Shown in pieces: positions 14,385 to 53,845 of a stretch of 64,000 nt of DNA; the first letter of the stretch is position 1, and the number at the start of each line of letters is the position of its first letter. The notes beneath the pieces were generated by a model. The model was not told where the DNA came from and searched no databases. It saw only the letters and a list, made by a program, of their open reading frames with translations. A program made the translations under genes and the position numbers. Source of the stretch: Lepidostoma basale (lineage: Eukaryota; Arthropoda; Insecta; Trichoptera; Lepidostomatidae); the NCBI GenBank assembly GCA_022606425.2, contig JAHDVF020001552.1:434001-498000 (forward strand), read 5' to 3'.

Positions 14385-14700
14385 AATTTTCTTCTTTTTC
14401 TTTTTTATATACTCGTACTTTGTATATACAACATTATATGGTTGACATGTTTCGGACAACCAGTGCTTCTTCAGTGATACATATTATAAAGATACTTGTT
14501 TAAAATATTCCAAAATTGTGATCTGAAAGATGTTAGATCATGTAACATCTGTCAGATCAAGTAAACAATTTTATAATATTTTAAATATGTAACACTGAAA
14601 AAGGACTAGTTGTCCGAAACATGTCTATGTAATATATATTTTTTTAAATATAAGTGTTGTATCTACAAAGTTTATAAAAAAGAAAAAGAGTAATAAATTC
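14385..14700 (+). repeat. Inverted pair of hammerhead-bearing units (family 1)
   Basis: A foldback element: the left end (TTTTTTATATACTCGTACTT) and right end (AAAGTTTATAAAAAAGAAAA) are complementary, and each half holds a hammerhead core. Left, - strand, 14444-14474: CUGAAGA, stem II, GAAAC, ACAUGU, C. Right, + strand, 14595-14625: CUGAAAA (one core change), GGAC/GUCC stem II, GAAAC, ACAUGU, C. The left core is complete but stem II has a mismatch. Confidence 0.8.
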
Positions 14701-14999
14701 CTTCATTTACTCCTTTTCTTTAAATATTTTGTTTACCTTTAGTCTTCCAAGCTCTCATTTCTAATCATACGCAAAATATGTTTTTTCCAAATTACAATTT
14801 TATTTAACATTTATATTATATAATATTACAGTTAAAAATTACTAATGAGTTCATACTGAACACAATGAATTATTAGTACTTAAACCAATTATTCCAGGTT
14901 ATATTTTGTCACATCAGAATGTTAATGCCAACACATACTCGTACATTGTTGTGCATAAATGAAGGTCTTCTTGAAGGTTTCTGACATTTCTGACTGCCT

Positions 15000-15880
15000 T
15001 AAACTTCAATCAGATCTCGACAGACTCTCTCATTACTGCACACTAAATGAATAATCCATAACACGGACAAGTATCGCTGTATGTTATCCTTATTTAATAA
15101 ATAAATAAATATATCACACAATTTTTTTTTCATTATAAACAGTGAACTTCTGAAAAAAAAGTATTTAATCTTAAAATAACAAAATATTTCACCTCTGAAT
15201 GTCTTATCCACGCCATCTAATAATCCACTTTGCGTATACATATGAAATAAGCTTAGAATTACGAACACTGCATTTCAGTGAGCTTTTAAGTGCTTTAGGG
15301 CGGTCTGCGGGTTTGTTCATCTCGTTTAGTATCCAATAACCTTCAAGTATCATTGGTCTACGAGGTTTTTATATGTTTTAAAATTGCTCACTAAATACAT
15401 GAATTTATAATTTTGAGAAAAATACGGGTATATATTTTGAATAGCACAATTAATTATATTTACTAAATAAAATTAACAACATGTTTTATTATTACTTGTG
15501 CTGGTCAAGCGAATATTAATTATTGAAGTTTCTGAGTGAAACAAGCGAAATAAAACAAATTTAAAATTTATTATCTTAAAAATGAAGACACTGCAATTGA
15601 TTATCTTACTATTTAATACAACTCTTTAAAATAATACAGTTATTTGTAACAAGTCGAAATAAAATTTCTGTACACCCATTTCATTGCATAAAAATGGTAC
15701 ATCATTTTTAAAAGTTATTATTCATATTCATAAGAAATTAGAAATATTTGTATTGTTTGCCATACGTAGAAAAAATACTTAATTGTATTATTTTTATCAA
15801 TTAAGTATTATATATAGAACATGGTGTGTATTGCAGAACTTGGTAGTTTGACATATTTTAAAATAAAATAAACGCGTTCT
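15000..15880. other. AT-rich sequence, nothing recognised
   Basis: No coding signature, RNA gene or repeat that matches other parts of the window. Confidence 0.5.
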
Positions 15881-15885
15881 CTCTT

Positions 15886-16033
15886 AGTATAAACCACTTT
15901 ATTGTAAGTTTCACTGTGTAGCTAGCTCCCTCATAGCTATACATAAACTTTAATTTATATATAGCCCTGAGGAAGTTTGATACAGAGTGAAACCTGTTGG
16001 CGATTCTTACTCAAATAAAGTGGTTTATACTAG
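15886..16033 (+). repeat. Inverted-repeat element with hammerhead core (family 6)
   Basis: Arms TAGTATAAACCACTTTATTG and its complement flank two facing half units. On the + strand CUGAGGA lies at 15967-15973 and GAAAC at 15989-15993, followed by CUGUUGG. The left half (GTTTCACTGTGTAGC, CTCCCTCA) is the degenerate inverted twin. Stem II pairs only weakly, so activity is doubtful. Confidence 0.6.
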
Positions 16034-16477
16034 GTGAAAATTTGTTTATTTTAATTTTATTATAACTAAGGTAACAATATCTCGACATTCCATCCAAAGG
16101 ACATCCAAGGACGCCACCCCCTCCCAGTTAGACCGTGAGATGTGACCTCTGCGAAGGCGGAGGAACATTTTGACATCCTCTGACGTGACGAGCTCCCGAA
16201 GAATATCTCTTACATGCGGGACTTGTGATGAGAATCCTTAACAAGGACATACTGTCTTACCGCTTATTACTTTGTAATACCTGCACACCTATTTATAGAA
16301 TTTTTTGATTTCTAGCTCCCCTAAAATCATTAATGTGTAAAATTCTTACTATTGTTCATATTTATTCATTCAATCCATACGTTTTAACCATTCTCATTAC
16401 TCAAATCAGGTTTAGCTGTTTGAATATTTGTATTTATTAATTAATACATCTATCAAATGTTTTCATAATTAAAAAGT

Positions 16478-16625
16478 CCACTGTTTTAGCCGAAACACTA
16501 TGATACCTTAACATTTTAAACTGTTAAATTAAATAACTTTGTTTTTGTATCACAATGGTATTTTATTTTACGCGACAGCTGTTTCATCAACCTATGTTGA
16601 CATCATCAGGTATTTTAATAATTTA
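16478..16625 (-). ncRNA. Hammerhead ribozyme candidate, family 2
   Basis: On the - strand: CUGAUGA (16603-16609), a stem II of GUCAAC and GUUGAU around a short loop, GAAAC (16581-16585), palindrome ACAGCUGU, then C and GCG. All invariant core bases are present. Stem I near the core pairs poorly. The unit carries the family's outer motif GCCGAAACACTATGATACC at 16491. Copies: 31333, 44690, 47045, 53540 (pair) and a decayed one at 62715. Confidence 0.75.
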
Positions 16626-16704
16626 TACCAATTAAATCGAATGATTTTTTAAATATTAATTATAGTTTAAAGGAATGACAGTATCGCATTTCTAAGGTAT
16701 CATT

Positions 16705-16800
16705 AAATGTGACTGACACTTGTCATTTGATAACGCCTTAGAAAGACAAAACATCTCATTCCCATATACGAAAATGGATCTTCTATAAAACTGACGTTTT
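16705..16800 (+). repeat. Family 5 half element
   Basis: CATTTGATAACGCCTTAGAA, GACAAAACATCTCATTCCCA. Decayed copy of the hairpin-plus-GAAACATGTC unit. Confidence 0.5.
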
Positions 16801-17789: not shown

Positions 17790-17905
17790 TTAATTATCAA
17801 ATGTTCATTTGATAATGTCTTAGAAGGGCGAAACATGTCATTCCCATAAAATATAATAAAACTTGTAGAAAACTGACGTTTTCATTCGTATTATTTTTAT
17901 TTTTT
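17790..17905 (+). repeat. Family 5 half element, well preserved
   Basis: TTTGATAATGTCTTAGAAGG, GCGAAACATGTCATTCCCAT, AAAACTTGTAGAAAACTGAC, CGTTTTCATTCGTATTA. It gives the clearest reading of the right half of the family. Confidence 0.65.
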
Positions 17906-18191: not shown

Positions 18192-18270
18192 AAACTTTTG
18201 TAACCCTGACGAAGCTCCAGCGGGAGCGAAACCGCTTGGTTTTAACAAAAAATAAAATGGTGTAAAAACT
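18192..18270 (+). ncRNA. Hammerhead ribozyme candidate, family 3
   Basis: CUGACGA (18206-18212), A, stem II GCUCC/GGAGC with a 4-nt loop, GAAAC (18228-18232). Stem I: AACC (18202-18205) pairs with GGUU (18238-18241), and UUUUGU further out pairs with ACAAAA. All core bases are intact. Stem III is ACCGCU, one change from the palindrome ACCGGU of sister copies. Other copies: 24140, 32490, 39340. Confidence 0.8.
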
Positions 18271-18667
18271 ATTAACAGTGTGTTCATATTACCGTATTTT
18301 TGAATTATACAATACATAGTCAATATTTTCGAACAAATTATCATATCTGTTCTCATAAGGGATGGAGTCTGTTCTGTGATGTCAGTGTACAGGGAGCGTA
18401 CCAACTGGGGTTATTTATGCCCTTGGGTCCGGCGGTCAGCGAGCCTGTCGAGGACAGATTGTAATAACTTATACGGGAGGGAATATCACTTTGTAGTGCG
18501 TTGTTTAGGACGAAAATTCATTGTTGTATTAATTACATGAAATATGTGACAAAACTGCTCCAATCACTAAATATGTATCATTAAATATAAACCTATGAAT
18601 TTATTAATTATCAACAATGAACTTCTCCCGAGAATTCCAATTATCAACATTAAGAGATTTTTTTTAA

Positions 18668-19145
18668 CTAACTAACCATCACGCCGTCTCCCCGAAGGGA
18701 TAGCCAAAAATAATGGATCGCAATATTGTTCTTTCTTGACATACCTTTCTATTTTCCTCAATATGAATACATCGTCTCATCAACGCACGTTGATTTCTCT
18801 GACTCCTCACGTGGCCGACAGTTATTATTTGATTGATTTAATCGTGCCACGTTTTCCTCGGTAATGCTATATTTCCAATTTCGTTTACATTGTTTGAATT
18901 TCCTATTTTACCACACTTTATTCATTCATTCTTTCCATTTGTCCGATCATGACCCTTTCGTTATTTTGATTATATCAATTTCGCAGTGCATTCACTATAA
19001 ATATTTTTATTTAATAATCTAATATACAGATTAACCACGCATTCGGCTAAGAGAGTTCTACTGCTTTGAATTTACTTCCATAATTTTTTTTTTGCCAATT
19101 CCAAGTTTCACTTCCATGCATAAGTCGGCACAAGAACACTATTTT
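18668..19145 (-). mobile_element. Degenerate TAAC-family LINE copy
   Basis: TAACTAACTAACCATCACGC, CGTCTCCCCGAAGGG terminus followed by a heavily mutated complement of the C-terminus up to the SEAWNWQKK region at 19090-19140. Many indels. Confidence 0.7.
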
Positions 19146-21909: not shown

Positions 21910-22095
21910 GCATGAACGTTCCAAGTAAACCTTCATAACATCTGTCAAAACTGATCATATATGTAAACAATTTTATTATATTTTAAATATGTTTCTTTAT
22001 AATATGTATCACTGAAGAAGGACCGGTCGTCCAAAACATGTCTGTAATTTTTTATTTAATTTAATTTTTTTAAAGTTAGTTTTGTTTATAAAAAG
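21910..22095 (+). ncRNA. Hammerhead-bearing unit, family 1, decayed at one core base
   Basis: CUGAAGA at 22012-22018, stem II GGAC/GUCC, then AAAAC where G of GAAAC is A, ACAUGU palindrome (22036-22041) and C. The G-to-A change sits in a CpG of sister copies, as expected from decay. The upstream body AACGTTCCAAGTAAACCTTC is shared with 38530 and 55400. Confidence 0.7.
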
Positions 22096-22304
22096 TATAA
22101 AAAAAAGAAAAAGACAAATAACACTTTCTTAATTTTGGAATATTCAGAGTTTTATTTATTTATTTTGTTTTTGGTATTTCTAATGTTACATGGATTTGTC
22201 ATGTTTACCTTGCTAGTTAAATAATTAATCCGTCAATTCTATATAATAAGTTGATTTTATAATTTGAAAAATATAATTAATAAGAATTAAATCGTCTGTT
22301 TTCT

Positions 22305-23860: not shown

Positions 23861-24139
23861 TTTTTTAGGTACATTTTAAATTCCTATAGGATATATTCTA
23901 TAATTGAATAAGACATAATTTGAGTATCTTACCAGATAATTGAAAATGTTGCGTAATGGAAATGTGAATTTTTTAATAACAATATATTTATTTTAATGTA
24001 TTTTATGAACATCTGCTGTAATTCATCTTATACAGGTTAACGTAAAAATCGCAATAAGAAATGCATTATCTTAAACTTTCGTATGAAGCACTTCGTTGGT
24101 GGTGTGGCATTGTTAAAAAAAATTAAATACTTTTATACA

Positions 24140-24268
24140 ATACCTACTTTGTTTTTACACTACTTTATATTAGTTTTTTCTAACACTGATGAAGCTCTGG
24201 CGGGAGCGAAATTGGTTGATTCGTTAAAACAAAATAAAGTGGCGTAAAAACAAAGTATGAAGAATGTT
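24140..24268 (+). ncRNA. Hammerhead ribozyme candidate with long stem I, family 3
   Basis: CUGAUGA (24186-24192), stem II GCUCU/GGAGC, GAAA (24208-24211), then UUGGUU. Arms TACTTTGTTTTTACACTACT and the complementary GGCGTAAAAACAAAGTA would extend stem I to over 30 bp. Core bases are intact; the base of stem I has an internal loop. Confidence 0.78.
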
Positions 24269-24439
24269 TTAAATTATTTTGAATCATCCCTAGCTGTAAT
24301 GAAATATTACACAATTTCTTCACCTTTGACTTAGTTAGTTCGATACTAGTCAAAGGCGATATTGAAAGTATGACTTTTCCATGCAAATTCCATATATAAA
24401 ACAGTTAAAACAGAAAGCGATCGGAATACCTAGTTAGTT

Positions 24440-24790: not shown

Positions 24791-24924
24791 ACACAAGACG
24801 ATGTAAAGTAATAAATGATTTAACGGTATTAACACCCTCACTGCATTAAGGAAAAACGAGTTACTAAAATTGTAATGGAATATATAAATCGAGTATTTCT
24901 CTTTCATTTCATTTATTCTTCTTT

Positions 24925-25375
24925 TTCTTCTTCTTCACTTTTGGTAGACTCAGGAGTCTATTATTTCAGGCGGGTCCTCTTGAGACGCTGAACTCCAGCT
25001 TTCTCTCCACCGTTTCGGGGGTCTTCCTGGTCGGCGTTGTCCGTTTAGCGTTCCATGGAGAGCTATGTGTGGTATCCAATTTGAGCTCATCCTTTCTACG
25101 TGTTGATGCTAGTATCGCTGTCTTTGACGTCCCCATCTGACCACATCTTCAACCTCGCAGATTTCTCGGATTGCTGTATTCCTAACTCGATCACGTAGGG
25201 TCTTGCCAGCTATAGCGCGGAGAGTGAGGATTGGTCGCACACAGGTCTTATAGATGCGTACCTTGCTGTCAGTCCTCATGTCCTTGTTTCTCCATATGAT
25301 ATCTTTCAGGAAGCCTGCAACCGCCGCAGCCCTATCCACCTGTGACCTCACTTCTCTGGGGAGGTCATTTCATTT
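24925..25375 (-). mobile_element. GAA-tailed RTE-like LINE, near twin of 43245-43895
   Basis: Reads EVRSQVDRAAAVAGFLKDII, WRNKDMRTDSKVRIYKTCVR, PILT, (deletion) LRAIAGKTLRDRVRNTAIRE, ICEVEDVVRWGRQRQRYWHQ, HVERMSSN. Tail GAAGAAGAAGAAAAAGAAG. Sequence is almost the same as the + copy at 43400-43895 apart from a deletion of about 85 bp near 25225. Confidence 0.85.
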
Positions 25376-26470: not shown

Positions 26471-26559
26471 TATTTTCTTTCACAAACATGTTCCGGGCCA
26501 CAGACCTCCTTCTTCAGTGTAGATTTTTAATATTGTTTTTAAAAATAAAAATTAATATG

Positions 26560-28296: not shown

Positions 28297-29738
28297 CCAG
28301 GGGTGGCGCTTAAATGAATATATGGTGTATAAATATATGAAGTTTTAGCCGACTTTGTGTCATTACCAGGGGCGCCAATATATGTAATAGTTACACTTAC
28401 ACCACACTTACTTCCAATTAAATTGTCTCACTTAACGTATTAAACTTGTTCATAGGTTGCCTTTTATGTTTTTACAATCGAACAATAGATGGCGTTAGTG
28501 AGTTATGGCATCACTGTATTTGTGAACATTGGCGTTTGTTATTGCGAAGCCAGTGGCAACATAGTAATTGCTCGATTAGGTTGTTGATAGTGAACGTTTA
28601 AAAGAAGCAAGTTTGTGCGAAAGTGGAGATCACTCGTGAAGGTTTTCGTTGGATGATTTTTTTATGATTTAAAAAAAGGCCTTACTCGACAGCAATGCAT
28701 AGAATTGCTTCGTGCAACTTTTGGTAATGAAGCACCATCAGAGAAGACTGTTTGCAATTGGTTTGCAGAATTATGTCATGGTCGTGCGTCCGTCAGTGAT
28801 GAATGACGAGAAGGTCGGCCAAAATCGGTTGTCATTCCGAGAAACATCGATGCTGTGGGCATTATGACTAAAGAATATCGGCATGTGACTTACGGACAGA
28901 TAGAGGTCACTCTTGGCATATCGCAGACTGCAATACAATCGATTTTGCATGAGCATTTAGGTGTGAGAAAGATTTATTCCAGATGGATTCCGCATAATTT
29001 GACCGAAACGAAAAAGGCTCGTGTTGATTGATGTCACGAAATGTTGAAAAAATTCAACCAAGGAAGGTTCAAAATCCGTATACAACATTGTTACAGGACA
29101 CAAAACTTGGATGTATTCGTATGAACCTGAAAACAAACAACAGTATACTGTTAGGGTGTTTGACGATGAACCCAATCCCACTAAAGTTGTTCGTTCACGG
29201 AGCACTTCCTAAAAAGGATCGCTTGTTTCTTCGGTTGTACTGGACACTTTGCAACCTTTCCTTTAGAGGATCGAAGAACTGTTAATGCCAAATGGTATAC
29301 AACAATTTGTTTGCCAACAGTCTTCGATGAACTAAGGAAAAACACCAAAAAACGTCGCATCATTCTTCATCACGACAATGCCAGCTCCCATAAAGCACGT
29401 CAAACACCTGAATATTTGAAGGAGAAAAACATCGAATTAATGTCTCATTTCCCGTATTCACCTGATTTATCGCCTAATGACTTTTTCCTGTTCCCTACTG
29501 TCATACAAAAGATGAGTGGTCAGCGATTTTCATCACCTCAAGAAGCTGTTGAAGACTTTCAAAACCATGTTTCTACAATATTTCTTCAGAGTGGAGAAAA
29601 TGTCTCCAGAATTGGTTTAAACGTATGCAAAAATGTGTAGACCTAAAAAGGAAACATTTTAAAAAGCAATAAAACACTTTGTTTCAAACTTGTTTGTTTC
29701 TGTTTCACTTTTTGTAAAAACTTAAGAGGCAACCCTCG
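28297..29738 (+). mobile_element. mariner transposon with both terminal inverted repeats, decayed
   Basis: This is a Tc1/mariner-class DNA transposon of about 1.44 kb flanked by TA dinucleotides (28295-28296 and 29739-29740). The ends match as inverted repeats: the left end reads CCAGGGGTGGCGCTTAA and the complement of the right end reads CGAGGGTTGCCTCTTAA. Inside is a broken transposase. The element ends 50 bp before the acceptor of the Rap-GAP exon at 29791. It is a little longer than the usual 1.3 kb for mariner. Confidence 0.88.
28650..29665 (+). pseudogene. mariner transposase pseudogene
   Basis: Reading frames broken by stops and frameshifts encode a mariner transposase. The N-terminal part has the helix-turn-helix region (a KKGLTRQQCIELLRATFGNE-type segment, then TVCNWF). 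Next come segments resembling YGQIEVTLGIS and the IHNL-type linker (here IPHNL). The middle, which should hold the first catalytic Asp, is shifted out of frame near 29040-29290. The C-terminal frame 29311-29640 is open and keeps HHDNASSHKA (second Asp) and PYSPDLSPNDFFLFP (third Asp, the mariner D34D spacing). At least three stops or shifts mean it cannot make an active enzyme. Confidence 0.88.
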
Positions 29739-31080: not shown

Positions 31081-31309
31081 AATGAGCATTAGAGCTTAGC
31101 CGCCACTCTTTTGACACCAAAAGTATTCATTTGGTTCTTTTACGTTTTATTTCGGGGTTATTATCACCCTGAAACGAAATAGGTCCATTCAGTAAGTTTC
31201 AGTTTCAAAAAATGTTTATTCCATTTCTTTTCTAAGTATATTTAATATTTTTTATGCCGCTATCACTATTCTTCAAACATGAATATTATAATAATCAATA
31301 TTTTAATTG

Positions 31310-31515
31310 TTTTGACCGAAACACTATGATACACATTATAAACTGTTAAATTAAAAAACTTTGTTTTATGTTTCACAATTGTATTTGTAGCACTTGCACA
31401 ATTGTTACATCTGATGATGTCAACATAATTAACATTAATGAAACAGCTGTCACGAAAAAAAAAATACAATTGTGATACATAAAACAAAGTTTTTAATTAA
31501 ACAGTTTATAATATT
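31310..31515 (+). ncRNA. Hammerhead ribozyme candidate in a long inverted repeat, family 2
   Basis: CUGAUGA at 31411-31417, a longer stem II beginning UGUCAAC, GAAAC at 31440-31444, palindrome ACAGCUGU (31443-31450) and C at 31451. Arms 31333-31390 and 31460-31515 (AACTTTGTTTTATG, CACAATTGTATTT and complements) give a stem I of more than 50 nt. All core bases are intact. Confidence 0.8.
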
Positions 31516-31519
31516 TTAA

Positions 31520-32440
31520 TTATACAGTTTTTCGAGATTTTTCGTAAAATTATTGAATTATTGTTGATATTCATCAAGCACATTACAGCGTTATTGAATA
31601 TTTGAAAAATGCAGGTGAAATGATCACGTATAACCTATTTTAATCATATGCAAAACCGCAAACGGGAATATCACCGATACAAACCAAACCGCGATGAAGT
31701 TTGGAGCAGGCTGGAGAACGGAATAGAGTATTCCTGGAATTGGAAGCGGGCGTATTGGTTTCATGCTCCCAATAGGAATTGTAGCGACGGTGGCTTCAAA
31801 TTATTGCAAAATGCCTCCGCCATGATGCGACAGGGATAGAACGTAAATTCTCCCCACCCCCTTGCACAAGGGGTGACATTCCGTCCCCAGTGATATTTCA
31901 CTCGAATGTTTCAAATACTTCAACCCACGCTGTTTATTCCTACGTGTGGTTTTGACACAGAAAAACTTTTTAGAAATATCAATGAATTATGTATTATTTT
32001 TAGCATTGTTCAATGTTTGAAAGTGCCATTAACTCTTGTATTATGTAAATCTATAAAATTACACATTTAAAATCTAATGAATATCTATTGATATATAAAT
32101 TTCTATTTTGAAAAAAATTCTGATTGATAAATAAACTCTTGAATGAAAATTTTAAGTTTTCCCAACGAATTTAATATTTAAGTTATCAAGATATTAATGT
32201 TTTAATATTAAATTTGTTTTGTTGTTAATTTAAAGTTCATTGTTTATAATGATTATTTTTGGTGGAATCATATTACAATCTTCTATTATATTTTAATATT
32301 GTAAAGGAATTTTAAATTATTTTCATTGTTTAAGTTACCATTTTTTATGTTAAATGTTTATATTTAAACACCTTATATTACGCATCTATTAGTGTTTATC
32401 TAGTATTTCAAAACTTACCTTAGTCAAAATCAACATATAG
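31520..32440. other. Intron sequence, AT-rich, nothing recognised
   Basis: A GC-richer part at 31650-31880 (TGGAGCAGGCTGGAGAACGG) has no match. The rest is plain AT-rich intron. Confidence 0.45.
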
Positions 32441-32489: not shown

Positions 32490-32570
32490 ACTACAAACTT
32501 CAGGATAACAAAATATATTTTATAACCCTGATGAAGTTTTGCTTAAAACGAAACCGGTTTGTAGCTTTAA
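32490..32570 (+). ncRNA. Hammerhead ribozyme candidate, family 3
   Basis: CUGAUGA (32528-32534), A, stem II GUUUU-GCUU-AAAAC (perfect), GAAAC (32550-32554), perfect palindrome ACCGGU (32553-32558), U at the cleavage position. A possible distal stem I pairs CTACAAA (near 32492) with TTTGTAG (32558-32564). Core and stem II are complete. Confidence 0.8.
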
Positions 32571-34839: not shown

Positions 34840-34990
34840 CATAAATATGGCGATGCCAGCGAGCCTGGCGAAACCGGTCGCTATTATATAAAATATAGAT
34901 AATTGTGAAATGTACATATGGTATTAAACAAAACATTTGATAATGGCTTAGCAAAGCGAAACAGACGTTTTCATTTGCATTATTTTTTCA
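34840..34990 (+). repeat. Hammerhead-like unit (GAUG class) followed by family 5 half
   Basis: ATGGCGATGCCAGCGAGCC and TGGCGAAACCGGTCGCTATT: AUGGC/GCUAU can pair as stem I, CCAG/CUGG as stem II, ACCGGU then C. The residues between stems I and II are GAUG-C instead of CUGANGA. From 34925 a family 5 half (ATTTGATAATGGCTTAGC) follows. Confidence 0.6.
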
Positions 34991-35620: not shown

Positions 35621-35838
35621 GACGCTGGGACACGAAGTGAGCTGGGTACAATAAAAATTTTCAGAAATTTTGAGGATTTTACCAGCCTCAGGTCGGTTTG
35701 TTTTTGTTAATCCAAAAGTGATATTTTGTTTTAAATATAGTTTTTTTTTATCCAAATCTACATACATAAATAGGATTTAAATTACTTATTGAACGCTACG
35801 GCATTAACACTGGAATTCCATTGTATTATACTTAGAAA

Positions 35839-36097
35839 ATTGGAAAACTTTGTTTAATTCACTATTTAATAAAAAAATATTAAAAAACACGACATGTTTC
35901 GGAGGATACTTCCATCTTTAGGTGTAAAAATATAATAAAAACTCATTGAGTTTTTCTTTGTTTAGTTTTTATTATATATTTACACCTGAAGATTTATTAT
36001 TATTATTTATTATTTTTATTATATATTTATCCTCCGAAACATGTCGTGTTTTTAAATATTTTATATTAAATAGTAGATTAAACAAAGTTTTCCAATT
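35839..36097. repeat. Foldback element with two hammerhead cores, family 7
   Basis: Arms 35839-35905 and 36030-36097 are complementary (ATTGGAAAACTTTGTTTAAT and its match). Both inner ends carry CCTCCGAAACATGTCGTG. The + strand core is complete: ACAC (35982-35985), CUGAAGA (35986-35992), an AT-rich expanded stem II, GAAAC (36036-36040), ACAUGU, C (36045), GUGU pairing with ACAC as stem I. The - strand twin has CUAAAGA. Confidence 0.8.
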
Positions 36098-36594
36098 TCC
36101 AAAGGGTATAAATAGTATTAGCTGTTTATCAAACTTTAATGTTTTGGACCGTTTTAAGAGTTGGAGTAAATATTTGTGTACGATATTGTATCCCGGGACT
36201 AACAAAAGGTATTTAATACGGAATTTCATTTGATCGAACTGCAGATAACCCGCAACGTTTTCCCCACTCAGAAGTCCTTTGAGGTCCTTTATAATCTTAA
36301 AAGGGATTCCGTGTAGTCCTGCCATCCTTAATAACTTCCCGCCGAGTTGAGTTTACCTTCCGAAATGTTTTTCCAATAGTTTGTAGTCTTGAAGGGATCT
36401 GATCAATAGGAGGCCCCTCGCCCTCGCCGCCACTCGCAGCACTCTGAATATTCAGTTTGGAAACAATCCATTCATATTTATAATATTGCAAAGATTATAT
36501 AATATTGTATTCGCTTTTATCATCATTTACTTTTAAATTTAACTTAAATCCTAAATAATAAATAAGATAATAATTAAATAAAAGAAGTGAATGC

Positions 36595-37290: not shown

Positions 37291-37916
37291 ACATGTGTTT
37301 CTAGTGATAAAGTAATTTAGACATTGGTACATTCTGATATAACTTAATTATAAATTAATTTATAAGGCAATATATTTAAAAAGGTTTTAAATAATTATTA
37401 TAGAGGTTTAAAAGGGCATTATAAAACGGAATAACGGACTCAAGAATCATTCTTCGGTTAATATCCTAATTCTCTTTAAAGATGAGACTGGTTTAGATTA
37501 TTTATTGGGGGAGTTCTGCGGAGACTATAAATTATTCAAGACCGAAAACGCAACCGGATGTGACGGTGACAGCGGAAGTGGCTCAGGTGAGCACAATGGC
37601 GAAACGGAAATAACTCTAAACTTGTTCACAACGCAGGTACCCGTTAACTGGTACTTGCGTCGGTAAATCACACGTAAATTTACTTGCGCTAATGTAAAAC
37701 GTTGTATATGCAGAATTGTTATTATTGTAGATGCTTTTCAGAATTTTTTTTCTTTCTAATTTGTATTAAGATTTTACTAGCACACATATAAACAATAAAT
37801 ACATATCTTCTTTGTTCGCCATACTTTGTGTTGTATTGTACAAAGATGTTTTATATTTTTCTTTTTCATACACAATACTTTGTTTACAACAGAAACATTT
37901 AAACAAATTAAAATTA

Positions 37917-37962
37917 AATATCAAACATGTTTCGGACTACCCAGTCCTTCCTCAGTGATATT
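37917..37962 (-). ncRNA. Complete type I hammerhead ribozyme candidate, family 1
   Basis: Read on the - strand: stem I strand AAUAUCA, core CUGAGGA, A, stem II GGAC/GUCC with a 6-nt loop, GAAA, palindrome ACAUGU, U at the cleavage position, and stem I strand UGAUAUU, which pairs perfectly with AAUAUCA (7 bp). Every invariant base is present. Stem III can only form between two ribozymes because ACAUGU is self-complementary, as in dimeric hammerheads. The surrounding family 1 body runs to about 38045, where a LINE copy begins. This is the best candidate in the window. Confidence 0.85.
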
Positions 37963-38039
37963 ATATAGTTGAAATATTATAAAATTGTTTACAAATATGG
38001 TCAGTTTTGACAGATATTATAAAGATTTATTTTGGAACG

Positions 38040-39334: not shown

Positions 39335-39450
39335 TTTTTTAAGAACCAACCGATTTCGCTCCCGTCGCAGCTTTGTCAGGGTAGTCTGTTTTGTTACATT
39401 AACGAAGCTCCGTTAAGATTGAAACCGGTTAGCTTCAAAAAACAATTAAA
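39335..39450. repeat. Inverted pair of family 3 hammerhead units, decayed
   Basis: Left, - strand: CUGACAA (G8 changed), GCUGC/..GGGAGC, GAAAU, UCGGUU at 39349-39379. Right, + strand: AACGAAGCTCCGTTAAGATT then GAAACCGGTTAGCTTC. Neither core is complete. Confidence 0.65.
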
Positions 39451-41139: not shown

Positions 41140-41735
41140 ACGTCACTCTCTTAAAATTCAATAAAACATTCAACAAAATGTACATTTCCTTACCTCGACA
41201 TTTCAATCTAAAAATGAATATGAAATTGTAAACATTCATATAGATTTGGTTATCTCGAAAATTCTTCAGCGCTAAATATCACACATTATTAAAAAAAATT
41301 GTCATATTCTATATAACAGACAAGTAGTTAATTACAGATAAAAAGAACTCACAATGCCTACTTTGAATATTCTGGTAATTTTGTTATTCTCGATTTACAT
41401 TTCTATGAAATTCTTTTCGTTTTTGTTAATATGGTGGAAACTTCCCCTCCAGATTCAAATTGGGGAAGTTTTAAATCCAAAAGTTTGTCTTACAAGAAGA
41501 AATTCAACAAACAATTTCTCGAGCAAACTGAGAGCTTAATATTATGATAATGTATTTTTTTTTACTTTTTTGCATCTAATTTTGAAAATCAACTAGCAAA
41601 CGTTTCTCATTTTAAAAGATGTGTGCCTGGTTATAAAATACATTTCCAAAGATCACATTTTCGCTTTGAAAAAGGTTTGTGAAATCATGTTTTTTTTAAC
41701 AGATATTTTTTTATACAATAATTATCACGAATAAA
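41140..41735. other. AT-rich intron, nothing recognised
   Basis: No signature found. Confidence 0.5.
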
Positions 41736-41737
41736 AA

Positions 41738-41905
41738 CGTCTGTTTTCTACAAGTTTTATTATATTTTATGTAAATGTCATGTTTCGGCTGTATAAGGCA
41801 TTAGACAGGCTGACATTTGATAATGCCAGGCGAAACATGTCATTTACATAAACTGTAATAAAACTTCTGTAAAACAGACATTTTCATTAGTATTACTTAT
41901 TTAAT
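41738..41905. repeat. Inverted-repeat element, family 5, symmetrical copy
   Basis: Left arm CGTCTGTTTTCTACAAGTTT, TATGTAAATGTCATGTTTCG; right arm CGAAACATGTCATTTACATA, AACTTCTGTAAAACAGACAT. Centre TTTGATAATGCCAGG. Arms about 55 bp. Confidence 0.75.
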
Positions 41906-43239: not shown

Positions 43240-43900
43240 ATTTTCGTAAGCTCAAAATACAACATGATCATATCCATCCCAAAAACGAAGTGTATGACAT
43301 TCTCAAGAAATCAACTGAGATGCGAAGTCACCGTACGTCAGGAGGAAAATGAACAGGTGGACCAATTCAGATATCTCGGAAGCGAAGTAACCAGCTCTAC
43401 TGACCTCCCCAGAGACGTAAGGTCACAGGTGGATGGGGCCTGAAAGATGTCATATGGAGAAACAAGGACTAAGGACTGACAGCGAGGTACGCATCTATAA
43501 GACCTGTGTGCGACCAATTCTCACATATGGCATTGAATCGAGGGCAGACACTGTCAAGACAAAGAACATGCTCAGGACAACCGAGATGAAAACACTCCGC
43601 GCTATAGCTGGCAAGACCCTACGTGATCGAGTTAGGAATACAGCAATCCGAGAAATCTGCGAGGTCTAAGATGTGGTCAGATGGGGACGTCAAAGACGGC
43701 GATACTGGCATCAACACGTAGAAAGGATGAGCTCAAATAGGATACCACACATAGCTCTCCATGGAACGCCAAACGGACAACACCGACCAGGAAGACCCCC
43801 GATACGGTGGAGAGAAAGCTGGAGTTCAGCGTCTCAAGAGAACCCGCCTGAAATAACAGACTCCTGACTCTACCAAAAGTGAAGAAGAAGAAGAAGAAAT
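43240..43900 (+). mobile_element. GAA-tailed RTE-like LINE, longest copy
   Basis: Frames give TKCMTFSRNQLRCEVTVRQE, VDQFRYLGSEVTSSTDLPRD, TDSEVRIYKTCVRPILTYGI, LRTTEMKTLRAIAGKTLRDR, VRNTAIREICEV, WGRQRRRYWHQHVERMSSNR, PGRPPIRWRESWSSASQ. A one-base deletion near 43440 and a stop near 43669 break it. Tail GAAGAAGAAGAAGAAG at 43882. Confidence 0.88.
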
Positions 43901-44205: not shown

Positions 44206-44214
44206 ATTGAATAA

Positions 44215-44660
44215 TATAACTAATTAACTAACCATCACGCCGTTTCCCCTAAGGCGTAGGCAGAGAACATGTACCGCCATACTGCTCTGTCTTGATTTAC
44301 CATTTTAGGTTTCTTTACATTCATACATGTTCGTACATACATTCATTCATACAAATACGCTCGTCGATTTTTCCGACTTGTGACCGCCTTTTAGTATTCG
44401 ATTAATTTGGTCGTGTCATGCTTTCTTTGTTATTGCGAGGCTTCCCTTTCAACACAAATGCTTGTATACAACATTTTAACCATCCTTCTTTCGTCCATTC
44501 GTTCCATATGCCCAAACCATCTCAAAGATCCTTTTTTAATTTTGCTAATGATGCAATCATCTGCCTTACATGTCTTTCTTATTTCATCGTTCGTTATTCT
44601 ATCATATATCATTTTCCCGCCCATTCTTCTCAGTGATCTCATTTGTACGGCACTTGTCTT
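44215..44660 (-). mobile_element. TAAC-family RTE-like LINE, second subfamily
   Basis: TAACTAACCATCACGCCGTT terminus, then coding end with MRSLRRMGGKMIYDRITNDE, KKGSLRWFGHMERMDERRMV. Divergent from the 11627 copy. Confidence 0.8.
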
Positions 44661-44689
44661 ACATAATAATACAAATTTTAATTAAATAG

Positions 44690-44835
44690 TCCATTGTTTT
44701 GGCCGAAACACTATGATACCTTAACATTTTAATATTAACTGTTAAATTAAATAACTTTGTTTTTTGTATCACAATTGTGTTTTATTTTACGCGACAGCTG
44801 TTTCATCAACCTATGTTGACATCATCAGGTCTGGT
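44690..44835 (-). ncRNA. Hammerhead ribozyme candidate, family 2
   Basis: Same core as 16478-16625: CUGAUGA (44823-44829), stem II GUCAAC/GUUGAU, GAAAC (44801-44805), ACAGCUGU, C. Outer motif GGCCGAAACACTATGATACC at 44701. Intact core, weak proximal stem I. Confidence 0.75.
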
Positions 44836-44994
44836 GTTACAATAATATATCAAATGTCAAAGTTTCGTGATTTTTCGAATCTTTATGTGTATTTGTTCCT
44901 TTGTCAACTTTTTTTTTTTTTTTTTTTTTTCGTTTCACATGTTTTGAATCATCGGAAGAACTATGTAAACGAGTATACATCGTTCTCCCGATAG

Positions 44995-45110
44995 TAAAAA
45001 TGTAAACCCACAGAAACGTCTAATAGTTCTCATTTCTACCGCGTTTATTCTGCCCTCATCCTTCTTCTGCCAGCTCCATGCTTCGCTTTCAAACATATTC
45101 TGAAAAAGAA
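44995..45110 (-). mobile_element. TAAC-family LINE fragment
   Basis: SEAWSWQKKDEGRINAVEMR, TIRRFCG. It overlaps in family position with the 44215 copy, so it is a separate insertion, not its continuation. Confidence 0.7.
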
Positions 45111-45519: not shown

Positions 45520-46043
45520 TGGAGCTGGCAAAAGAAGATTAACTGCTGGACTCTTAAGCTAGTGATTAACTTCACTAGCTTAAGAGTCCAGAAAGAATCT
45601 AGTATAAACTCTGCTAGACAGTCTTCAAAGCTCTACATAGAACGGCTCCAAATTATATATCCGAACTCTGTATAATAGATAGCCCTAATACAAGGAAATC
45701 CACACGTCGCGTCGCTCGGTGAACTCCTCGGCAATAGGAAGATTAGTAGAGCCAAAGCGTTGTCCTAGTACAAATTTCGGGGATCGAGGAACAATCTTCC
45801 TTCACACCTCAGATGCATAAATGATCCGGCAGACTTCAGATCTAAGTTGAAAACACGTATTTTTCATATTTCATACCCAATTGAAAACCTGTATATTTTG
45901 TTCTATTATACTATCTAATCGATCGCGAATATCAATCAGATGCAGTCAATCATTTAAAATGCGTCTTATAGTGCCCTTGAGGTGATTACATCACAAAAAC
46001 GGCGCTTTAAAACATAGCATATTATTATTATTATTATTATTAG
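45520..46043 (+). mobile_element. CR1-like LINE 3' end with ATT-repeat tail
   Basis: Reads KFRGSRNNLPSHLRCINDPA, DFRSKLKTRIFHISYPIENL, matching the LP-x-HLR, D-x-FR-x-x-LKT end of CR1/L2-type proteins; then GTGCCCTTGAGGTGATTACA and an ATT run at 46021-46042. An internal palindrome lies at 45546-45591. Confidence 0.75.
45546..45591. repeat. 46-bp palindrome, 20-nt arms
   Basis: CTGGACTCTTAAGCTAGTGA and its exact reverse complement, separated by 6 nt. Confidence 0.9.
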
Positions 46044-46339: not shown

Positions 46340-47040
46340 TAAAGATATTTGGTTTTGATTTGCAGAATATTTTATCCCAAAATCAACGTTAATTATTTTA
46401 ATGTTATAAATATCTTCATTCTCAAAGTCATTTAATTTACGAACGGAATATTACATATCTATGCAATAATGCCGCATAGTACATCGAATCCGTAGAATAT
46501 ATCATTTATCTAAGTAAATTTAGTTTTGTATGTAAATGACACGCCATCTCTCTGTCAACGCCATAATCGTGTTGAGATAAACTTTCCAAGGAAATTGGTC
46601 TTTGAGTAAATCCAAGGTCGATCTCTTGACATTGCAAATTTCATCGCCTTTGATCTTTTGGGTTTAAAAAAGCGTTTATATTAACAATCATTTGCAAAAT
46701 TCACAAAGAAACTTCACTTATCTTTAAAAAATCACAAGACAAAAATGCGTTTATTTTAGTGTCCTTTTTTATGTTACACATGATTTTTTTGTAGAAAATA
46801 ACAAGTCTACGTGATATCTAGTTGGTTCTCAGTCCTAACGTTGTATTTTGTTTTAATTACGTACAAATTGTTCTATTGTATTCCCCTTGGTTGACAACTC
46901 TTTACGATTCACAAACAACTCAATTAATTTCTTCACACATCCTTAAGATAACAACACAAACTAGACAGTAACTAGACAAAAAACTTGTTCTCTCACAAAA
47001 TATTATAAAATCCACATAAACGTATCGTATTAATTTTTAG
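46340..47040. other. AT-rich intron, nothing recognised
   Basis: No signature found. Confidence 0.5.
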
Positions 47041-47044
47041 TCCT

Positions 47045-47185
47045 TTCTTTTGGCCGAAGCACTATGATACTTCAACATTATTAACTGTTAAATTATAAAT
47101 CTCTGTTTTTATGTATCACAATTTTATTTTTATTTTTCGCGACAGCTGTTTACACAACCTACATATGTTGACATCATCAAGTGTT
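47045..47185 (-). repeat. Family 2 hammerhead unit, decayed
   Basis: GGCCGAAGCACTATGATACT outer motif; core reads UUGAUGA and UAAAC on the - strand, so two core bases are lost. Confidence 0.65.
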
Positions 47186-47379
47186 ACAATAATATATCAA
47201 ATGATCAATTTTCATGATTTTTCTAACCTTTATGTGTATTTGTTCCTATGTCAATTTGAATATTCTCTTTGATATAATTTTAGTAACCTAATTAAAATTA
47301 ATTAAAAAAACGGTTAGTTACTATTTATAGGATACATAAAAACAAGGTTTTATAATTTAACAGATTATATTTATTGTTT

Positions 47380-47655
47380 TTTTTTTTTTTTATATACATA
47401 CTTAGTATACAACACTCACTTTATTAAAAAAATTAAAATTATACACCAAACATATTTTGGACTAACAAACCGGATTTATAAATGATTTTAACATCTGTCA
47501 AAACAGACCACATTTATATTCATATAATATAATTTATTTATATTTGTATAATATCACTGATGAAGGGCTTGTTAGTCCCTAACATTTTGGTGTTTAATAT
47601 ATATTTTTTTTAATAAAGTGAGTGTTGTATACTAAGTTTATAAAAAAAGAAACAT
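47380..47655. repeat. Inverted pair of family 1 units, decayed cores
   Basis: Left half - strand (ACATATTTTGGACTAACAAA), right half + strand: CUGAUGA at 47557-47563 is intact but GAAAC has become UAAC. Ends TATACATACTTAGTATACAA and TTGTATACTAAGTTTATAAA are complementary. Confidence 0.72.
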
Positions 47656-47659
47656 TAAA

Positions 47660-48535
47660 CATTTACAACACAAAGTTATGGCGAATATAGAAGAATACTT
47701 TATATTCATTTTTATTAATTATTATTTAAAGAAATCGTCAATCGTGCAGTTTTACAAAACGATTAAAAAAGTTATAATCTTTATTTTTACTGAACGTCGA
47801 TTACATACGGACATAATTGATGTTGTTTTAAAACATCCTTTATCGGCGCATAGGCTTACGTAAAACGTTGTTTTTTTCATTTTATTATCAACATTTTAAA
47901 CCAACCACCACAGTTTATTGTTCGGATATTTCTACCAGGAGACAATAAATGTCAAATGTTCACACAACCGACACATTTGTTAGTAAATAAATGTAATCAT
48001 TTTTTAAGGTTTAATCCCCTGGCGGATTCGTAATACCAATTCCCACAGCATATATATCTGGGGAGGAAAATTTAATCAGGGTCCATTTCTCTGTTTTCGT
48101 CCCTAAAGCGAGAAGGGATAAGCAGTTCTCATCTCCAGTCTAATTAAGTTACTTTATAATTTCAATTATAAAAAATGCAGACGGCGAAGCCAAGGGAATT
48201 ACTTTCGTTTGTAAAGAAAACTTTATCATGAAACCAATTTTAAAACCAACTGCGCACTTGTGGAACTGTTGGTTTGGCTTCTGAAAATTACTTCGGATGG
48301 CTGTGGAATGCAATGATCAAATAACATTTATGAGGCTTTCTACCATATATTACGACTACATGGATATGTTTATTTATTATTACCCTGAAATATGTGTCTT
48401 ATAAAAATGTGTAAAAACGTATTTCATATCCATGTTTGAAGATAATTTTAAATTAATAATTTATTATTTATTAAAGTATTCTAAACTTTTACTATCTGCA
48501 ATGCTTAGTGGCAAATATTCATTTATATATAATAA
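47660..48535. other. Intron sequence, nothing recognised
   Basis: A frame at 47678-47863 has no family signature. CGAGAAGGGATAAGCAG at 48110 may be a LINE scrap. Confidence 0.45.
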
Positions 48536-49824: not shown

Positions 49825-50355
49825 GTAACTAACTAACTAACTAACTAACTAACCAACCATCACGCCGTCTCCCCGAAGGGGTAGGCAGAAAGAATGGACT
49901 GCCACACTTTTCTTTCCTGACATATTTCTCTCGCTTCCTCAACATTCATACATCGTGTCATGCACGCGCGTCGATTTCTCTGACTCTCACATGGCCGACA
50001 TTCAATATTTGATTTATTTGATCGTGCCACGTTTTCCTCGGTCTTCCTCTATTTCTGGTACCATTTACATCATTAACATATAATTTTTTTACCATTCTTT
50101 GTTCATTCATTCTTTCCATATGTCCAAACCATCTTAATGATCCTTTCATTATTTTGTTCATGACACCATCATTCGCACCGCATTCACTTCTTATATTTTC
50201 ATTCGACACTCTATCATACACAGAATATCACACATTCGTCTAAGAGATCTCATTTCTACTGCATTTATTCTACTTTCATCCTTCCTTTGCCAGTTCCATG
50301 CTTCACTTCCATACATAAGGGTCGGTAGAAGAACACCATTGTGCACTGCCATTCT
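49825..50355 (-). mobile_element. TAAC-family RTE-like LINE with long TAAC tail
   Basis: Seven TAAC-like units (49828-49856) then the CACGCCGTCTCCCCGAAGGG terminus; coding end has YDRVSNENIRSECGANDGVM, NKIMKGSLRWFGHMERMNEQ, RNRGRPRKTWHDQINQILNV and upstream KQRKDESRINAVEMRSL. Very close to 11627-12113. Confidence 0.85.
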
Positions 50356-51100: not shown

Positions 51101-51169
51101 ATAAAAAGATACTCTCTAAAGACAAGGGTATTTGTCTTCTGAACGCAAATTCACTAATATGAAAGATGT

Positions 51170-52120
51170 CACTAAATTCTTGTCGCAAAAAAGTCACACT
51201 TGACCAAATTTCAGGTTTTAATTTAAAGTTTGTATTTTTTGTATGAAACTTGATTTCTGAGCTCTTCTGAGAGAGCATTAAACAATTATTGTCCAATTTA
51301 TATCAATCGCGTAAAAGTATCGCAGCGGGACTACGTGGCTCCGTATTTATTATGATATTCAACAACCACTTTCGATAATAGACAGCTTGTTGCTTCGAGT
51401 AGATGGATTCAATTAACCTAAATTTCGTATTCCATTATACCAGGGAAACCCATCACCGTTCATTAAATTGTATTCTCTCTGGCAAAAAAGTTCTCCGTGA
51501 GATTGTTAGAGCATTTTGATAATACGATTGCATTTCAATGAGTTTGCGTCATTAATGTATTCAAGTTACGTACCCACGAAACAGCTGTATCCAAAATTGG
51601 GTTTCAAATTATAAAACTTAATTAGTCGTTTCATTGTAATTACTGAAATAAAAATTAACTTTATTATTTAAATTGTATTTAATATGAATTCAAACTGTAT
51701 TTTTCCACTGCTGAGTATGTTATACTTCTCTGGACGGAAAGTATTAAACATTCTCGTCTGGAGAACTAATATAATAGACAAATTAAAATTTCACAGAATA
51801 CATGAGGTAGAATACAACTAGAGAAAAATGTATTATACTCGTATACTGTGTTTGAATTTTTTAGAGTGAGCGTTGGTGAGTGATTTCGTGGTTATTTTTT
51901 CAAAGAAGTAAAGAAAACTAAACATTATAACAATGGCAAATAATATGTCGTAAACAAATACATCGCCTGTCAAACACAGTATTTAATACACATATCATTA
52001 TTCGGGAATTCACCAGTATTCCACCGATTAGAAATTTAAAGAAAATGTGTGGCGATGAGATTGCAACCCATCACACCGCGTCTCTCGCGGGGGCGAAAAG
52101 AGAAGGATGGAGTGCCGCAT
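51170..52120. other. AT-rich intron, nothing recognised
   Basis: No signature found. A possible LINE terminus in - orientation (CATCACACCGCGTCTCTCGC) is at 52070. Confidence 0.45.
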
Positions 52121-52129
52121 CGGTTAAAG

Positions 52130-52200
52130 AGTGGCAGTCTATTCTTTCTGCCTACCCTTTTCGTGGAGACGGCGTGATGGTTAGTTAATTAGTTAGTTAC
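52130..52200 (+). mobile_element. Terminus of a TAAC-family LINE, + orientation
   Basis: TCTATTCTTTCTGCCTACCC, GGAGACGGCGTGATGGTTAG, TTAGTTAG. Adjacent to the reversed terminus at 52070, so two termini face each other. Confidence 0.7.
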
Positions 52201-53144
52201 ATTATCTGCTAATAATGGTTTACAAAATAAGATATATAAATAAAAAATCAAATTGTATTTATAACGCAACTCGCCAATGTTAATGAAACCTCGTTGTGAT
52301 AAAACGATAAACGATTTTTAAGTTAATATATTACTTTAGTTAGTAAATGCTTTTCTGGTTATTGTACATATGTCAAACTTTTAGACATGATATACGAAAA
52401 GTTTGAACAACATCACAAATTAAAATATTTCGTGATTTAATATTCATCGTTCACGGAATTCAACTTGCAAATTTAAATTAGAATCCTCGGAATACAAACA
52501 TAAGAGCAAGATTAATTACAGAACCGGCCAGGTCTGAAAAAGCCCTTCAAGTTACTAATTTCTCTACAGAGTCGGCTAGACGATAACGGAAGCAGATCGC
52601 TCATTCTGGAACGAAAGGAAATGATGCCACTGTTATACGAGTATACAAAAAAATAATAATCAAACACATTTTATGCAATCTCGCACTCTTTTTAACAAAC
52701 CTAATTGATAGTTGAAGTATTAGTTTTGTAAAACTCTATTGTTAATTGGATATTACTTATATAATTTATATGAATTAAATCCAAGTTAAACCACTGCCAA
52801 TCGTGTTTACTATTAAAAACTAATTATTATAATTTTCATTTGTATTCTTCTTCCTAGCCTATGATTAAATTACTTAGTTTGGTGGGACCGTTTTTTTAAG
52901 ACTCTTGTTAAAATTTCGTATCCACGTCAACTCTCATAGAAAAAATCGGTCGATCCCATGTATTCTTGTTTTAATATCCATTTATTTTTGTATTTTCAAA
53001 TCACAGACATGATCCATCTTCAAAAATCAATAAAGTTTAGCTATATCTCTCCGTTTGGTAATCTGTTGTCATAATATTTCAATATCTAATCATCAAATGT
53101 GGTACAGAAAGCAAAGGGAAACCACTTCTCCCACGATAATCTAT

Positions 53145-53455
53145 GAAACGGACAGACAAGAACTAGATTATCTGTAATATACAGTCGACGAGTATTAAGT
53201 TTCTTTGCCAGAAGAGACCTGGATTACCTGGAAAAACGTTTTGTCACAGAAAGTGTTCTAGACAAAAGAAGTAGAGGCAGATCTCCTGCGCGGTGATCAG
53301 ATTTAGGAGATGACTGGGGCGACCTCTACTAGTCGGTGCAGGTTACGAAGAACAGAATGGATTGGAAGCGTTTTGTTTTAGCAACGGCCTCTTGGTGGAT
53401 CACATGCCTCAGTTATGAAGAAACGATGAAAGAAGAAGAAAAATCATAATTTTAT
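53145..53455 (+). mobile_element. GAA-tailed RTE-like LINE fragment
   Basis: FFARRDLDYLEKRFVTESVL, DKRSRGRSPAR, MDWKRFVLATASWW, tail AGAAGAAGAAAAA. Matches the RTE end (FGH-x-x-RRD, RGR-x-P-x-RW). Confidence 0.68.
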
Positions 53456-53539
53456 CAATAAATTAAAATATTCTTATTTAGTCTGTGATTACTAATTGAA
53501 ACACTGTTTTTCTCACTTTTCACTTTGTGTTAATTCAAT

Positions 53540-53845
53540 AGTTCATTGTCTTGATCGAAACACTATGATACTTCAACATTCTAAACTTTTTAATTAAAAA
53601 ACTTTGTTTATGTATCGCAAATTATATATTTTTGTTTTATTTTTGCGACAGCTGTTTCGTCAAACTATGTTGACATCATCATTTGTTACAATAATCTATC
53701 GACTAGAGAGTTGATAGATCATTGTAACACCTGATGATGTCAACAAAGGTAAACGAAACGGCTGTCGCGAAAAATAAAAAATATGTACATTGTGATACAT
53801 GAACACAGTTTTTTTAAATAAACAGTTTATTGTTTTAATTCATAT
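53540..53845. repeat. Inverted pair of family 2 hammerhead units
   Basis: Left (- strand) is decayed at one base (AUGAUGA for CUGAUGA). Right (+ strand) is complete: CUGAUGA 53731-53737, stem II, GAAAC 53755-53759, ACGGCUGU, C 53766. The two meet at CTATCGACTAGAGAGTTGAT. Outer ends ACTTTGTTTATGTATC and its complement pair. Confidence 0.8.

Follow-up and report, generated by a model that had tools for sequence, protein, structure and literature searches.

Hammerhead-type ribozyme cores with an extra base in short repeats of Lepidostoma basale that resemble pseudo-LTRs of Penelope-like elements

A 64,000-nucleotide stretch of the Lepidostoma basale genome (the window) carries short repeats whose RNA would contain a CUGANGA box, a hairpin, a GAAA box and a small palindrome, the outline of a hammerhead ribozyme. 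Are these cores genuine, are the repeats related to one another, and what kind of element spread them? An earlier note, made from the letters alone, had listed ten complete cores and assigned them to at least seven unrelated families.

CUGANGA was found near the given position at all ten listed sites, the minus-strand coordinates being displaced by 30-38 nt from C3 (Table 1). BLAST joined these sites into four families: A (14474, 37955), B (16609, 31411, 44828, 53731), C (18206, 24186, 32528) and D (35986); the figure of seven, taken at face value, was ruled out by these links. Completeness held for CUGANGA and failed elsewhere in several cores: an AT-rich insertion splits stem II at 35986+, continuous stem II amounts to only 2 bp at 31411+ and 53731+, its second pair is broken at 14474-, and the palindrome at 18206+ is imperfect. 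Core-adjacent stem I is reduced to 0-1 bp at all four family-B sites, as well as at 14474-, 24186+ and 32528+ of families A and C. Ten further sites, some with core changes, brought the window catalogue to 20 cores.

Table 1. Hammerhead-type cores and the repeats that hold them, in window coordinates.
Feature	Position	Strand	Cores and remarks
C3 of ten listed cores			14474-, 16609-, 18206+, 24186+, 31411+, 32528+, 35986+, 37955-, 44828-, 53731+
Ten further sites			14595+, 15967+, 22012+, 35921-, 39379-, 39399+, 47180-, 47557+, 53682-, 55331-
Best-preserved hammerhead, family A	37916..37963	-	37955-; 7-bp stem I, CUGAGGA, extra A, 5-bp stem II, GAA, palindrome ACAUGU, U17; 56.1 bits (model trained partly on this site)
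Family A head-to-head foldback	14393..14689		14474-, 14595+; arms 71% identical
Family A copy	21915..22121	+	22012+; GAA changed to AAA
Family A foldback	47380..47715		47557+; right arm long
Family A copy	55218..55406	-	55331-
Family B single copy	16466..16660	-	16609-
Family B foldback	31264..31535		31411+; stem II mostly lost
Family B single insertion within LINE-derived sequence	44663..45007	-	44828-
Family B copy	47030..47270	-	47180-; core UUGAUGA
Family B foldback	53530..53840		53682- (C3 changed), 53731+; left arm long, right short
Family C copy	18196..18308	+	18206+
Family C foldback	24125..24279		24186+
Family C core	32520..32567	+	32528+; stem II GUUUU/AAAAC, compensatory to GCUCC/GGGAGC
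Family C head-to-head pair	39340..39438		39379-, 39399+; both cores changed
Foldback with C-like core	15860..16057		15967+; stem I GCC/GGC; filed under C by core only
Family D foldback	35826..36111		35921- (G5 to A), 35986+ (stem II insertion); stem I ACAC/GUGU
Family G foldback	41717..41901		Core UUGAUAA-U (U at 3, A at 8)
Family G core	17801..17847	+	17809+, not the only family-G site; E 0.0036, model not trained on G
Family H-like core	26477..26525	-	E 0.044
Family H core	63795..63843	+	U4 to A; E 0.017
Family F, altered core	5.6 and 34.9 kb

The families do not appear to be unrelated either. In 11 of the 20 sites, with at least one each in A, B, C and D, an ACAAAGT module lies downstream at a distance of 51-95 nt from C3; it is present in 5% of random 200-nt stretches. 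Because these four families have in common this module and the extra core base described below, they are probably related to one another. Cores are altered in families F, G and H: most of CUGANGA is missing from F, and G keeps U3/A8, its cores having been counted with an octamer near UUGAUAAU in a search that favours U3/A8.

Both boxes are present with stem II between them, altered in G and F, but with one extra A or U before stem II. A descriptor that includes this base matched eight window sites, five of them with canonical CUGANGA; 60 Markov-1 and 60 Markov-2 shuffles of the window averaged no more than 0.033 matches per class. A narrower descriptor matched five window sites, compared with none in 29 of 30 shuffles and one in the remaining shuffle. 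In a separate 200 kb of the same genome the one-extra-base descriptor gave nine matches; with a model built from 12 window sites there were 27 at E≤0.01 among the 69 listed to E 10. This excess and this recurrence speak against chance as the source of such cores. The extra base was A or U in every descriptor match (17 of 17, window and 200 kb together); versions with 0 or 2 extra bases matched nothing in the window or in the separate 200 kb, and a version with 3 matched nothing in the latter. It is the steadiest feature of the cores, and the earlier note did not mention it.

Rfam, whose hammerhead models had been proposed as a check, returned no hammerhead family in the window at the gathering threshold or up to E=10, nor in positions 37890-38000 alone up to E=10. 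This silence may be due to the extra base. A base at the same place, between A9 and G10.1, reportedly occurs in the hammerhead of chrysanthemum chlorotic mottle viroid, where A or U is said to be tolerated, with U speeding cleavage and C and G harming it (work attributed to de la Pena & Flores, 2001). That is a plant viroid, whereas here the insertion spans several repeat families. Three patterns run on viral contigs gave 0, 1 and 1 matches; both matches fall within reading frames of phages and were attributed to chance.

Stems I-III covaried in 12 window copies of families A, C and D (score 0.408 versus 0.187 ± 0.032 in shuffles; reached by 0/500) and in 21 copies outside the window (0.494 versus 0.200 ± 0.029; 0/500). 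The outside alignment, made of 17 of the 22 outside A/C/D rows from BLAST and four from the model or descriptor (L015:85, L018:7912, L018:6945, L011:4818 and L019:6995 omitted), leans toward structure, since the 27 model matches include 18 of its rows. A cruder count of pairs changed on both sides was reached by 134/500 shuffles for the window and 288/500 for the outside copies, and did not rise above shuffles in either A/C/D alignment or in family B. For A, C and D together, stem I next to C3 and the cleavage site was paired in 53% (window) and 61% (outside) of cells, with double changes in 3/5 and 4/5 pairs, respectively. The family-B alignment (24 of 27 rows; window:31403+, window:47128- and the spurious opposite-strand window:31386- omitted) gave no support for stem I, with 50% of cells paired; its stem II does compensate (pair 18-33: UA 14, CG 5, GC 2; pair 19-32: CG 17, UA 3). 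Compensatory changes, whose absence would have spoken against the earlier note, are present in A, C and D.

The A15.1-U16.1 pair was kept as A-U in 12/12 window A/C/D rows, 22/24 B rows and 18/21 outside A/C/D rows. A G at position 17, after the palindrome, occurred in 0/12, 1/24 and 0/21 of these rows, the descriptor itself excluding G. Among 14 sites folded, 37916-37963 was the sole one whose minimum-energy fold is the hammerhead; as lone RNAs the other 13 did not take it, and several favour other folds.

Taken together, descriptor enrichment and the covarying stems I-III of A, C and D support the hammerhead reading and the view, drawn from sequence, that these hammerhead-type cores are real. 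With decay in many copies, and with the best ones selected by a reader, AT-rich hairpin repeats might, by convergence or chance, merely display CUGANGA and GAAA. We regard this as highly improbable given the excess over shuffles, the recurrence in 200 kb not used for the model, and helices that covary in copies outside the window.

What are the units? They are short, non-coding and abundant; head-to-head inverted repeats, with arms 69-80% identical, hold 10 of the 20 catalogued window cores, and single units hold eight. Hairpin MITEs, non-autonomous DNA transposons, can have this foldback shape and these properties; the arms would then be terminal inverted repeats, and the hairpin and palindrome would be DNA signals for a transposase and not RNA. 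The ends of the units speak against this. Adjacent opposite-strand family-B pairs are head to head in 10 of 11 cases and tail to tail in one, and eight of the ten head-to-head pairs combine one long with one short arm, the other two being short/short; two of three family-A pairs are also long/short. In 35 alignments, family-B 3' ends fell at +94 to +112 (14) or +142 to +159 (12), with nine elsewhere and none between +125 and +141. The loop-side 5' starts are ragged (-90 to +62), although alignment ends reflect divergence too. The eight cores in single units also fit poorly with MITEs. The bases common to the families are those of a hammerhead (CUGANGA, GAA, A15.1-U16.1, non-G at 17), and in A, C and D stem I closes at C3/position 17; none of this would be required of a DNA site. 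An origin as MITEs is on this evidence unlikely.

The pairing of long and short arms in eight of ten B pairs is the 'tail' signature of Penelope-like elements (PLEs), and a PLE origin is the reading we favour. Reports on PLEs describe pseudo-LTRs (pLTRs) inverted head to head, one of which may bear a tail (PMC3846280), as well as 5' truncation (PMC8969392) and minimal hammerheads (PMC6155905). We estimate a probability of roughly three in four that the units are solo and inverted PLE pLTRs with minimal, dimer-type hammerheads, mostly decayed.

The flanks of the single family-B insertion at 44663..45007 (B44) repeat 46 LINE positions, suggestive of a target duplication whose copies have diverged; its 46 nt exceed the 8-10 bp duplications given for Adineta vaga Penelope (PMC3846280, as described there). 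When 12 elements were tested for flank duplication, four reached p≤0.05, all AT-rich, a result that is weak after 12 tests; the best of the 12 was 22 bp at A14 (p=0.005). No member of families A, B, C, D and G was present in two further gaps of this LINE (L016, 7.5 kb; L021, 4.3 kb). Pfam searches of 10 of the 20 long window frames found no PLE reverse transcriptase or GIY-YIG domain and one weak DDE_3; in 10 of the 53 long frames outside the window they found neither PLE domain beside a unit, one RVT_1 frame (L013) and one API5. Translations of family-A flanks, read by eye, contained no PLE-like frame. What ties the units to PLEs is their architecture and not any coding sequence.

Size, low GC, the lack of an ORF and type I hammerheads would suit animal non-LTR retrozymes, short circular-RNA elements mobilised by another retroelement, which are found alongside PLEs (PMC7229834). 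As described in the same source, retrozymes are tandem repeats of ~150-450 bp with mostly more complete hammerheads, whereas a tandem repeat finder listed no array of these units in the window, whose hammerheads are minimal and in many cases arranged as inverted pairs. Retrozymes are accordingly quite improbable.

Under the PLE reading, each unit would carry a minimal type I hammerhead whose palindrome (stem III) could pair two RNA copies, completing two symmetrical ribozymes. We infer that these would act as a dimer and cut after position 17, trimming the element RNA. Reverse transcription by a PLE enzyme, the presumed mover of the units, would have two internal start sites, ~45-50 nt apart, to begin from, and the choice between them would make the 3' end long or short; priming would occur on both target strands, so that two cDNAs meet head to head as a foldback, and incomplete copying would leave ragged 5' ends. 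In a foldback transcript the opposite arm would mask the ribozyme. The base at position 10 is A or U, with U giving an AUG from A9-U10-G10.1.

Minimal type I hammerheads of PLEs have reportedly been described by Cervera & de la Pena in 2014 and Lunse et al. in 2017. The cores here resemble them, as described, in their type I arrangement, a reduced stem III, the possibility of acting as dimers and dispersal in non-coding repeats and pLTRs. They differ in the U3/A8 variant of family G and in the lack of adjacent stem I in family B, and may differ in the extra A/U after A9 (17/17). PAc, a Poseidon PLE from the anole, has a hammerhead at its ORF start, reported near the AUG-equivalent place of the core, and like the mechanism proposed here starts reverse transcription at two adjacent internal sites and extends both target strands, as set out in PMC11167929. 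Its cut 26 nt past the start codon equals A9, U10, a 14-nt stem II, GAA, a 6-nt palindrome and H17, as here, but would also fit a core without the extra base and a 16-nt stem II beginning AUG (PMC11167929). PAc differs in having a PLE ORF; none was seen here in the frames scanned. In vitro insertion was unaffected in PAc hammerhead mutants, and no reads started or ended at the hammerhead cut (PMC11167929), which leaves a role in transposition as a possibility. Adineta vaga Penelope pLTRs show the same head-to-head inversion, junction palindromes, optional tail on one arm, 5' truncation and solo pLTRs, but the inverted pLTRs described there lie on either side of an ORF or captured gene, and any duplications measure 8-10 bp; a term count for that paper listed no 'hammerhead ribozyme' (PMC3846280).

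A bolder proposal is that the extra base marks a fixed design and not decay, a W10 subclass in which A9-U10-G10.1 serves as both core and ORF AUG, A10 forms are non-coding derivatives, family G is a natural swap of C3-G8 to U3-A8, and many thousands of such hammerheads in insect genomes are missed by present models. We hold this to be possible but doubtful.

Foldbacks that join a long arm to a short one are natural products on which two-strand priming by PLE enzymes could be examined. If the extra base is general in PLE hammerheads, many of these may escape searches built on the canonical core, and hammerheads in animal genomes would be undercounted. If the AUG is indeed both start codon and part of the ribozyme core, it would tie self-cleavage to the translation of a retroelement.

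The earlier note had listed ten places with a hammerhead-type core. CUGANGA is present at each, followed by a hairpin and GAAA save where decayed, and the finding is real and had mostly been read correctly. GC content is 31–40% per 4 kb across the window and transposon remnants are plentiful; one LINE fragment has 117 protein relatives, and those named for an organism are from insects, except one Wolbachia bin from a weevil, which places the host in or near the insects. The window was searched with a descriptor consisting of a core with C or U at position 3 and G or A at position 8, a hairpin of at least 3 bp with G as its first base, GAAA, and a palindrome of 6 or 8 nt ending in U and followed by a base other than G. 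In eight matching sites a single extra base separates the core from stem II (A in five, U in three); no site matched with zero or two such bases, as compared with a mean of at most 0.033 per class in shuffled windows (60 Markov-1 and 60 Markov-2 shuffles). Five of the eight carry canonical CUGANGA. An independent sample of twenty 10-kb stretches of the same genome (L003-L022, 200 kb), searched with a similar descriptor in which C3 and G8 were fixed and the first base of stem II was free, yielded nine sites that have a single extra base (U in six, A in three); no site had zero, two or three. Rfam models reported none of the window hammerhead sites.

Stem covariation was scored against shuffled alignments. 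Alignment A1, 12 window sites from families A, C (including the C-like site 15967+) and D, scored 0.408 for the structure versus 0.187 ± 0.032 (matched by 0/500 shuffles); when the partner was slid by one or two columns the score fell to 0.06–0.12, and a slide of three gave 0.31 or 0.07. Its 8 double-change pairs were no excess, a number reached in 134 of 500 shuffles, and its 19 further pair types were reached in 6 of 500. Alignment A5, 21 sites all outside the window, scored 0.494 versus 0.200 ± 0.029 (0/500; 0.10–0.18 when slid). Double changes occurred in 4/5 stem I and 5/5 stem II pairs, with no excess over shuffles in double-change pairs (288/500) or pair types (67/500). Most rows are model matches too, and they are related to one another, so the figures overstate independence. 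Family B copies, gathered by sequence, scored 0.173 versus 0.122 ± 0.011 (0/500), again without excess in either count (379 and 370 of 500 shuffles). In their stem II, pair 18-33 is U-A, C-G or G-C and pair 19-32 is C-G or U-A; the core-adjacent part of stem I is unsupported (50% of cells; second pair standard in 5/24). Outside its training sites, a model trained on A1 matched 17801-17847 of family G (+; E 0.0036), 47549+ of family A (0.0038) and 18007+ (0.007), and more weakly 63795-63843 of family H (+; E 0.017) and 26477- (E 0.044).

At least seven unrelated families had been proposed. This number was too high, as BLAST places the ten sites in families A, B, C and D, and "unrelated" also went too far: ACAAAGT is present in sites of all four. 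Of 20 sites, 11 have it at a distance of 51–95 nt from C3 (A 4/6, B 4/6, C 1/5, D 2/2, 15967+ 0/1); it occurs in 5% of random 200-nt stretches. UAACAC or a near variant is often the 5′ flank of the cores. Together these sequence features make a shared ancestry for at least A, B and D likelier than separate origins, and family C probably belongs with them. BLAST matches in the 200-kb sample numbered 70 for G, 27 for B, 21 for C (LINE flanks included), 15 for A and 12 for D. Family G has U3 and A8 in 39 of 51 scored rows and exactly UUGAUAAU in 16, an octamer that the search favoured; its core looks as if the C3-G8 pair had been exchanged for U-A. Support for families H and F is thinner.

Half of the 20 catalogued window cores (10) are inside foldbacks of about 155–300 bp, with 5′ ends toward the loop; a family C pair at 39.4 kb is head to head as well, and the other eight are single units. 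Among 35 family B alignments from window and sample (query itself counted), 3′ ends fell at +94 to +112 in 14 and +142 to +159 in 12, with none at +125 to +141 and 9 elsewhere, and 5′ starts ranged from -90 to +62. Of the family B pairs, ten are head to head and one is tail to tail. A long arm is joined to a short one in eight of the head-to-head pairs, and the remaining two have short arms only; none has two long arms. One of those eight long arms extends to the query end, into LINE sequence. Long and short arms are also combined in 2/3 family A pairs. The 44828- copy splits a LINE-derived stretch whose flanking sequences overlap by 46 positions, an overlap that reads as a long target duplication, since diverged.

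Other repeats and sequence features in the window and sample
Positions	Feature	Observation
2491-2563; copies near 12348, 23498, 40886, 50847	tRNA-like match beginning a repeat	Barely over Rfam threshold; perhaps a tRNA-derived SINE
5550-5715	Foldback	Arms 85% identical; centre GCCAGCGAGCCUGGC-GAAACCGGUC, common to 34845-34886; microRNA-model matches below threshold
11404-12128, 18655-18885, 44211-44328, 49836-50340, 62805-62859	LINE family copies	ACCATCACGCCGTCTCCCC near one end; abundant in window and L003-L022
44828 locus; L016 4555; L016 7433-7697	Three LINE interruptions	Other sequence breaks or abuts LINE at nearly one place, positions about 216-288 of window 12300-11401; perhaps a preferred target
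24919-25225 / 43592-43898	307-nt repeat, two inverted copies	Relatively young, because copies are 96% alike
29185-29637	Weak DDE_3 match	Under Pfam cut-off; may be a piece of a mariner-type transposase
45546-45591	Short hairpin	Arms 92% complementary; no hammerhead motif seen
L012:2227-2682	Frame matching API5 (apoptosis inhibitor 5)	May be an exon of a host gene

The units are best read as decayed solo or inverted terminal repeats of Penelope-like elements (PLEs). Penelope has head-to-head inverted terminal repeats, one arm with an optional tail (PMC3846280), and minimal hammerheads, usually without helix III, occur in PLE sequences (PMC6155905 and PMC7761336). In an anole PLE, reverse transcription starts at two internal sites and both target strands are extended; its ribozyme cuts only with protein present, mutants still insert in vitro, and the cut lies 26 nt past the start codon (all from PMC11167929). 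The present elements match the PLE picture save for the PLE ORF, none being found in a partial look. If A9-U10-G10.1 is read as AUG, the distance also comes to 26 nt when stem II has 14 nt and the palindrome 6, which is one of several possible layouts. Families B and D have this AUG because of U10, and it opens short reading frames only.

Among 14 window sites folded, only 37916-37963 gave a lone hammerhead fold, and its dimer is predicted to add stem III. In a foldback transcript each ribozyme would base-pair with the opposite arm, because the arms are complementary along their length. Such masking and the rarity of the lone fold suggest that many copies are probably inactive remnants. In intact parent elements, dimers may have trimmed the element RNA.

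The extra base that separates the core from stem II is A or U in all 20 catalogued window sites (families A-E), and U in 24/24 aligned family B copies. In A5 the counts are 17 A, 3 U and 1 C. A core-like octamer could be located in 51 of 61 family G rows, and there the base is U 44 times, A 4 times and C 3 times. In a viroid hammerhead study, an extra A10 was reportedly examined and A or U tolerated at that position. Beside CUGAnGA, known alignments show insertions no longer than one or two nucleotides, according to PMC10085705. The constant extra base is the point that specialists would want compared with published PLE hammerheads.
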